Source: Devosia sp. A8/3-2 (GTDB lineage: Bacteria; Pseudomonadota; Alphaproteobacteria; Rhizobiales; Devosiaceae). From it: a stretch of DNA of 64,000 bases. Position numbers and translations under genes: made by a program. The stretch covers positions 1,799,001 through 1,863,000 of the forward strand of contig CP104974.1 of assembly GCA_025452255.1 (NCBI GenBank), read 5' to 3'. Below, piece by piece: positions 63,292 to 64,000 of the stretch; the first letter of the stretch is position 1; each line of letters starts with the position of its first letter. The notes under the pieces are model-generated. The model was not told the origin of the DNA, did not search any database, and saw nothing but the letters and a program-made list of their open reading frames with translations.

Positions 63292-63323
63292 AAAAGGCCC
63301 CGCCCGAGGGGATGGGCGAGGCC
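63292..63323 (-). terminator. Minus-strand terminator with no obvious gene
   Basis: On the minus strand GGCCTCGCCC and GGGCGGGGCC arms are followed by TTTTGCTTTT. It lies between the first small RNA gene and the 62043 gene. Upstream, a 14-codon frame starts MADLPIERLF. The gap 63147-63485 holds no other coding signal. Confidence 0.6.
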
Positions 63324-63485
63324 GGGGGCTTTCTGCCGGAGCGGAAAACCTGAAGCCGTTATCGACTATGCGGTGCGGCGGAACAAACGCTCAATGGGAA
63401 GGTCAGCCATGCATGGCGGGCGATTTAGGGGTGATCGGCTCTCTGTCGCCCAGAGAACCTGAATGCCGATTGGCGTACCTCAGAA

Positions 63486-63680
63486 CAAAAAAGGGCCCCA
63501 TCCGAAGATGGGGCCTGATGATAGGGCCGAAGCCAAATCGTAAGTAATGGTCCAGTGCAAGGGAGGAGGATATGCACCAAACCGGGTGGACCCAAGCCGA
63601 GGGAGGAGGATACGGCCTAGATCCGGTGTCGCCTAACGCGGGTCCGAGGGAGGAGGATACGGAGCGGCGTTCCAGCGACG
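63486..63680 (-). ncRNA. Small RNA with three CCUCCUCCC hairpins (cuckoo/CcsR-like), copy 1
   Basis: Three stem-loops in a row on the minus strand, at 63643-63663, 63596-63616 and 63555-63577, each close a loop of UAUCCUCCUCCCU with four- or five-base stems (UCCG/CGGA, GCCG/CGGC, GUGCA/UGCAC). A UUCG-loop terminator (GGCCCCATC/GATGGGGCC, then CTTTTTTG) ends the transcript near 63486. The loops are complementary to Shine-Dalgarno sequences. Two-hairpin RNAs with CCUCCUCCC loops (CcsR, 'cuckoo' RNAs) are known in alphaproteobacteria and are stress-induced in Rhodobacter. This three-hairpin form is related by inference. Confidence 0.8.
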
Positions 63681-63686
63681 AATACA

Positions 63687-63715
63687 CATATAGAATTTGA
63701 CCTTCCGGTCAGCAA
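63687..63715 (-). promoter_or_regulatory. Promoter candidate of small RNA copy 1
   Basis: On the minus strand TTGCTG at 63715-63710 and TATATG at 63692-63687 with 17 bases between. A start near 63680 would place the first hairpin about 17 bases into the RNA. Confidence 0.5.
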
Positions 63716-63809
63716 TGGGCCTCTCAACATGTCAGCCATGCAATAGGCACTGCGACAAGTTGTCCATTCTTTGAGCAGCAGAGCTATGCGCTGCGCCGGC
63801 ATTGGCACG

Positions 63810-64000
63810 AAAAAGGCCCCATCCGAAGATGGGGCCGATGACTGGGCCGAAGCCAAATCTGAAGTGGGGTAGAGAGCAAGGGAGGAGGATATGCGCTCTA
63901 CCGTTGAACCCTTGCCGAGGGAGGAGGATACGGCTCAGGTTCGGTGTCGCGATACGGGGTCCGAGGGAGGAGGATTCGGAGCGCGTCTCAGCGACATGTT
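63810..64000 (-). ncRNA. Small RNA with three CCUCCUCCC hairpins, copy 2 (5' end beyond window)
   Basis: Same plan as copy 1: motifs at 63961-63979, 63915-63933 and 63875-63899, then the identical UUCG terminator stem at 63815-63836 followed by five Ts. The sequence between motifs is partly conserved (TCGGTGTCGC). The third stem differs (AGAG/CUCU with a small bulge), a covarying change that keeps pairing. The promoter lies past the right edge. Confidence 0.75.

Follow-up and report, generated by a model that had tools for sequence, protein, structure and literature searches.

Near its right end, the window analysed here (64,000 nucleotides of the 4.55-Mb genome of Devosia sp. A8/3-2, assembled in two contigs) carries part of what is probably, with a chance of about two in three, a cluster of separately transcribed, LsrB-activated small RNA genes that lies downstream of trxB-lsrB and whose anti-Shine-Dalgarno (aSD) products would block the translation of mRNAs. 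The structure of the RNAs, their conservation, the covariation of their stems, the linkage to lsrB, the position of the boxes and the promoter geometry were computed directly, and we infer transcription, LsrB binding, the silencing mechanism and the class of targets.

The pattern CCTCCTCCC is found at six sites in the window, all of them on the minus strand and within 63561-63973. In 100 shuffles of the window its mean count was 0.96 and its largest 4, with none at six. Over the whole genome there is no enrichment, with 37 sites as compared with 44 of the reversed pattern, and seven of the 37 sites belong to the LsrB-linked cluster. The six sites fall in two units of the same folded anatomy, in which three hairpins with a CCUCCUCCC loop are followed by a small hairpin and then by a terminator. 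Unit 3 is a predicted RNA of 195 nt (63486..63680, minus strand), its start being predicted, not mapped, and set 6 nt past the -10. Its three aSD hairpins, all with covarying stems, lie at 63628..63679, 63588..63624 and 63549..63583, with CCTCCTCCC at 63648-63656, 63601-63609 and 63561-63569, respectively; they are followed by the small conserved hairpin GATTTGGCTTCGGCCCTATC (63520..63539), placed in nearly invariant alignment columns, and by the terminator hairpin (63494..63515) and a T run. Unit 2, a predicted RNA of 188 nt (63808..63995, minus strand), repeats this order: aSD hairpins with covarying stems at 63946..63995, 63906..63942 and 63868..63902 (CCTCCTCCC at 63965-63973, 63919-63927 and 63880-63888), small conserved hairpin at 63840..63859 and terminator hairpin at 63815..63836. 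The small hairpin between aSD hairpin 3 and the terminator (63520-63539, 63840-63859) reads GATTTGGCTTCGGCCC(T/A)(A/G)TC and is nearly invariant.

With fold z-scores of -6.20 for unit 2 and -6.41 for unit 3, and none of 200 shuffles equally stable in either case, the tandem three-hairpin minus-strand RNAs proposed in a preliminary description of this locus are real. The terminator said to be common to both units is indeed a 22-base hairpin of identical sequence, and the 13-base loop thought to be the same in all hairpins is TATCCTCCTCCCT in five of the six, the exception being loop 1 of unit 2 (AATCCTCCTCCCT). However, the two units do not make up a single six-loop sponge, as had been imagined, since each has its own promoter and its own terminator and they are thus separate genes. 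The stretch first described, 63486 to 64000, truncates the locus: to the right of 64000, where more copies had been anticipated, lie another unit and the unit 2 promoter, and to the left of 63486 a fourth promoter.

Selection on RNA structure, suggested at first by stems that differ while pairing is kept, was borne out in an alignment of 56 units from 30 genomes. Over 41 pairs, 96.0% of the cells were paired (shuffled mean 84.1), two-sided changes were seen at 32 pairs (18.7 in the shuffled sets), and the covariation score, for a consensus structure derived from this same alignment, was 0.435 against 0.211 after shuffling and 0.039-0.114 in slid controls. None of 500 shuffles matched the alignment on any of these measures. 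Only the stems count as evidence here, as the loops were chosen by the search pattern. Three of the 59 three-loop units were left out of the alignment, namely both units of locus L026 and unit 1 of locus L038, the latter having no small hairpin. The three-loop pattern was present in 107 of the 136 Devosiaceae genomes (own genome included) and in 98 of the 119 of good quality; the reversed control pattern was met in a single one of the 136, in a low-complexity stretch. In the genus of the window the three-loop units are mostly two adjacent copies.

The units share a promoter arrangement. For the LysR-type regulator LsrB/VtlR the consensus GCAT-N3-TG-N3-T was used (PMC8844928, PMC7486931), and unit 3 has a box matching it, GCATGGCTGACAT, at 63729..63741 (minus strand), 26 nt before the -35 and 49 nt before the -10 of the putative promoter TTGCTG - 17 nt - TATAT (63688..63715, minus strand; hexamers assigned by eye against the consensus of PMC8844928). 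The corresponding promoter and LsrB-type box of unit 2 are located to the right of the window, at 64001-64030 and 64044-64056 on the minus strand. In units 1, 2 and 3 the box GCATGGCTGRCAT stands exactly 26 nt from a TTG -35 and 49 nt from a TATA-type -10, and its 15-base form GCATGGCTGNCATGT is found exactly three times in 4.55 Mb, only upstream of these three units, the reversed control giving none. Assuming a start 6 nt after the -10, the predicted position of the box is -61 to -49, the same as reported for the LsrB box of the AbcR1 promoter (PMC8844928). Throughout the family, 43 of 59 units had the strict consensus at -82 to -85 relative to the first loop, as opposed to 25 of 3661 control windows; at least 12 of the 16 units without it differ from a longer consensus at one or two positions, the 59 units showing no mismatch to it in 38 cases, one in 17 and two in 4. 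A palindrome, TGACC-N4-GGTCA, occupies the spacer between the -35 and -10 of unit 3 and may be a second operator; a match to TGACC-N3-5-RGTCA was seen in 27 of the 59 units.

Two more units flank the pair. Unit 1, to the right of the window (about 64193-64086, minus strand; fold z = -5.96), has an LsrB-type box and one CCUCCUCCC loop, in a 5' hairpin that is followed, according to folds inspected by eye, by an unpaired UUCCC motif, a hairpin and a terminator. On the other side, unit 4 has an LsrB-type box, GCATGGCTGACCT (63400..63412, minus strand), followed at 26 nt by a TTG (TTGTTC) and at 49 nt by GATAAC, and a terminator-like hairpin with loop ATCCCCTC and a T run (63292..63323, minus strand), without CCTCCTCC in the source copy. 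This arrangement of box, promoter and terminator was found in 32 of 40 family loci and in 7 of 560 control windows, CCTCCTCC being present in eight of those 32. As judged from its sequence, unit 4 would be a short transcription unit whose promoter is of the type seen in units 1 to 3.

Upstream of the units, to the right of the window and on the same strand, are genes for a HAD-family hydrolase, a LysR-type regulator and a thioredoxin reductase, and then GreA. The thioredoxin reductase gene, trxB, matches TIGR01292 with 363.6 bits (cut-off 343.45). No NCBIfam model names the LysR-type regulator above its cut-off, and we call it LsrB for its place after trxB, which is that of lsrB in Agrobacterium and Sinorhizobium, and because two ar15 RNAs come immediately downstream of a relative with 56% identity (locus L075). 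In Agrobacterium and Sinorhizobium it is AbcR1 and AbcR2 that are described downstream of trxB-lsrB (PMC8844928, PMC7486931). The array is downstream of lsrB and on the same strand in all 95 genomes that have both on one contig, the source genome included, at distances of 335-4388 bp (median 1562), some of the array coordinates in this count being those of two-loop pairs, and seven genomes that have both (G120, G123-G125, G127-G129) being left out, as their array coordinates are not listed. The same linkage was seen in five further genomes with two-loop arrays, and in three more lsrB and the array are on different contigs. The three-loop pattern is missing in 21 of 126 lsrB-bearing genomes. 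The array is also missing in eight of the ten genomes without lsrB, which carries little weight, given the incompleteness of most of these genomes and the linkage between lsrB and array. The lsrB frame of the source genome (L011:6132-6986, minus strand, right of the window) encodes 284 aa and has an end unlike that of its relatives, many of which have about 302 aa. Several other frames of this genome look broken as well and its completeness is 84.01, suggesting assembly errors.

The known RNAs of this kind had first been taken for two-hairpin forms, of which units 2 and 3 would be an expansion. This idea was rejected, since three- and four-hairpin forms are already in print: ar14/NfeR1 is defined by three hairpins with CCUCCUCCC in each (PMC10746234), and the SmelA075 and SmelA099 families are described with three and four such hairpins, respectively (PMC3927594). 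SmelA075 and SmelA099 resemble units 2 and 3 in these hairpins and in their diverged stems, and the section that describes them makes no mention of an lsrB link (PMC3927594). The Rfam model of ar14 has three CCUCCUCCC-loop hairpins as well. What is described for ar14/NfeR1 (RF02344; Smr14C2, SmelC397) agrees with units 2 and 3 in the three hairpins, in stems that vary and yet remain paired and in the presence of multiple copies per genome; moreover, NfeR1 is described as being under LsrB-type control, and the LsrB-type box found here is predicted to be bound. There are also differences. In the ar14 model a U run comes directly after aSD hairpin 3, so this hairpin doubles as the terminator, whereas units 2 and 3 have a separate small hairpin and terminator. 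They are also longer, 188-195 nt as opposed to about 115-123 nt for ar14/NfeR1, and in Sinorhizobium NfeR1 is described about 31 kb from AbcR1/2 and not beside lsrB.

Units 2 and 3 score 26.8 and 32.7 bits, respectively, below the ar14 cut-off of 58.8. Three of 20 same-family lsrB loci pass it (62.2, 61.0 and 59.0 bits), so at this cut-off the Rfam model misses most members of the Devosiaceae group. In the opposite direction, a Devosiaceae model built from 30 of the 59 units matched all of the 20 ar14 loci taken from other families with E-values of 0.0011 or better, a score to which the shared loop letters contribute in part. A survey of 297 genomes of the order detected ar14 in 103 at E 0.001, and in 54 genomes a match passed the cut-off; the single match in the source genome did not pass it. 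Considering the anatomy, the reciprocal model and the relatives that pass, and given that their own scores fail, units 2 and 3 were filed as a variant near ar14 and not as certified members; they are thus best regarded as putative ar14/NfeR1-like RNAs with a separate terminator, close to ar14.

Unlike units 2 and 3, which are not AbcR-like, unit 1 recalls AbcR in its aSD-loop hairpin, second CU-rich motif, hairpin and terminator. The cluster as a whole resembles the described AbcR1/AbcR2 locus (ar15, RF02345) in being downstream of trxB-lsrB, in its tandem copies, in the LsrB-type box and in the aSD motifs. Rfam ar15 gave no match to unit 1 up to E 10. It also gave none in the 136 family genomes, which is no proof of absence, as 14 control genomes were equally negative, and an AbcR profile from other families, a weak sequence-only model that ignores base pairs, had no match in 50 Devosiaceae loci. 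The AbcR-like character of unit 1 lies only in its position, box and anatomy. Among 40 lsrB loci drawn from other families, two had a match to Rfam ar15. In 19, the 1.5 kb downstream of lsrB contained an AbcR-like signature, namely an aSD hairpin and then UGUUCCC, and in 11 of these 19 the strict box stood 99-124 nt before the signature. Within the order, therefore, it is common for lsrB to be followed by an LsrB-boxed aSD RNA. Of 40 such downstream regions from other families, one matched the Devosiaceae model (E below 0.05), indicating that three-loop RNAs are uncommon in this place elsewhere in the order.

An alternative that we consider improbable is that the units are stress RNAs of the CcsR/cuckoo type, processed out of a DUF1127 mRNA, dependent on a heat-shock sigma factor and acting in general stress defence. 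Cuckoo RNAs reportedly have two to four hairpins with a CCUCCUCCC loop. The relation to this group proposed at the outset holds, as CCUCCUCCC loops are common to both, and tandem copies are likewise described for CcsR1-4/cuckoo and the CIN1 locus. However, the CcsR1 model (RF02791) matched with 25.6 and 21.2 bits, far under its cut-off of 65.3. The DUF1127 neighbour sought beyond the window is absent, too: the source genome has two DUF1127 genes, both at least 18 kb from any CCTCCTCCC site, and a DUF1127-linked cuckoo locus was rejected here. The CcsR and CIN1 loci thus differ from the source cluster, in which each unit is a separate transcription unit with its own terminator and promoter geometry, the hexamers being sigma-70-like by eye. 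Tandem ar14 copies beside DUF1127-like frames do exist in other genomes of the order, where by eye they come directly after such a frame (loci L049, L051, L052 and L054), which suggests that Rfam ar14 mixes DUF1127-linked and LsrB-boxed RNAs.

In the reading that we prefer, LsrB would most likely bind the box of each unit and activate the sigma-70-like promoter that follows, and the exposed CU-rich loops of each RNA would pair with the Shine-Dalgarno regions of mRNAs and block their translation. There are precedents for both steps: LsrB was reported to activate NfeR1 (PMC10746234), and NfeR1 and AbcR to keep ribosomes from binding to the start regions of mRNAs (PMC10746234, PMC8844928). For AbcR1 the reports are opposed, as AbcR1/2 were unchanged in a Sinorhizobium lsrB strain (PMC7486931) and an effect of LsrB on AbcR1 was described elsewhere (PMC8844928). 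NfeR1 was also reported to be Hfq-independent (PMC10746234). By analogy with NfeR1 and AbcR, the targets would be mainly nutrient-uptake mRNAs. The sequence GGGAGGA-N4-9-ATG was found in 93 places, two of which are the loops' own complements, against nine for the reversed pattern. Among the first 30 of these places, 24 had a frame of at least 40 aa, and ABC transporter domains were detected in five of these 24 genes; with AAAGGAA as control (30 places, 21 with a frame, 20 scanned, L207 left out) they were detected in two of 20. Broken frames are common.

The same loops could be imagined as decoys that titrate a G/A-rich RNA or a protein, the reverse of what CrfA and SisA do in Caulobacter. Nine-base CU-rich loops could pair with G/A-rich RNA, and CrfA is described as sequestering RNAs with a UUUCCUCCCU core (PMC12559287). 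Nevertheless, such a role seems unlikely to us, considering that NfeR1, the closest studied relative, silences mRNAs directly (PMC10746234) and that CsrA-like proteins bind GGA and not its complement. The CsrA-like, GGA-binding partner proposed before was thus rejected on sequence, since the loops present the complementary sequence. It is very improbable that the units are conserved DNA or mRNA leader hairpins giving no free small RNA, for despite their placement between genes on the same strand they have covarying stems and a promoter-like sequence and terminator each, and only overlapping ORFs and no long conserved frame could be assigned to them.

The LsrB-linked shared cluster looks like a new arrangement of an RNA type that is itself already known; searches of openly available literature, a scope that excludes most subscription papers, listed no report of it in Devosia or in the family. 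It connects two aSD sRNA families, whose loci have so far been studied apart, with a single regulator and a single gene cluster. One may speculate, although we hold it to be rather doubtful, that the Devosiaceae cluster keeps an old LsrB-controlled tandem array from which both AbcR and NfeR1/ar14 descend, the two having been separated later in Rhizobiaceae. If this is true, an entire set of anti-Shine-Dalgarno RNAs would have the redox-sensing LsrB as its dedicated switch. The cluster also offers a clean test of LsrB control outside symbionts and pathogens, and a means to ask if having the identical loop three times in an RNA, and several RNAs in a cluster, adds to the effect or is redundant. 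In two genomes, G130 (L114) and G122 (L112), four successive CCTCCTCCC sites were seen in one stretch, like the four hairpins of SmelA099, and both loci score over the ar14 cut-off.
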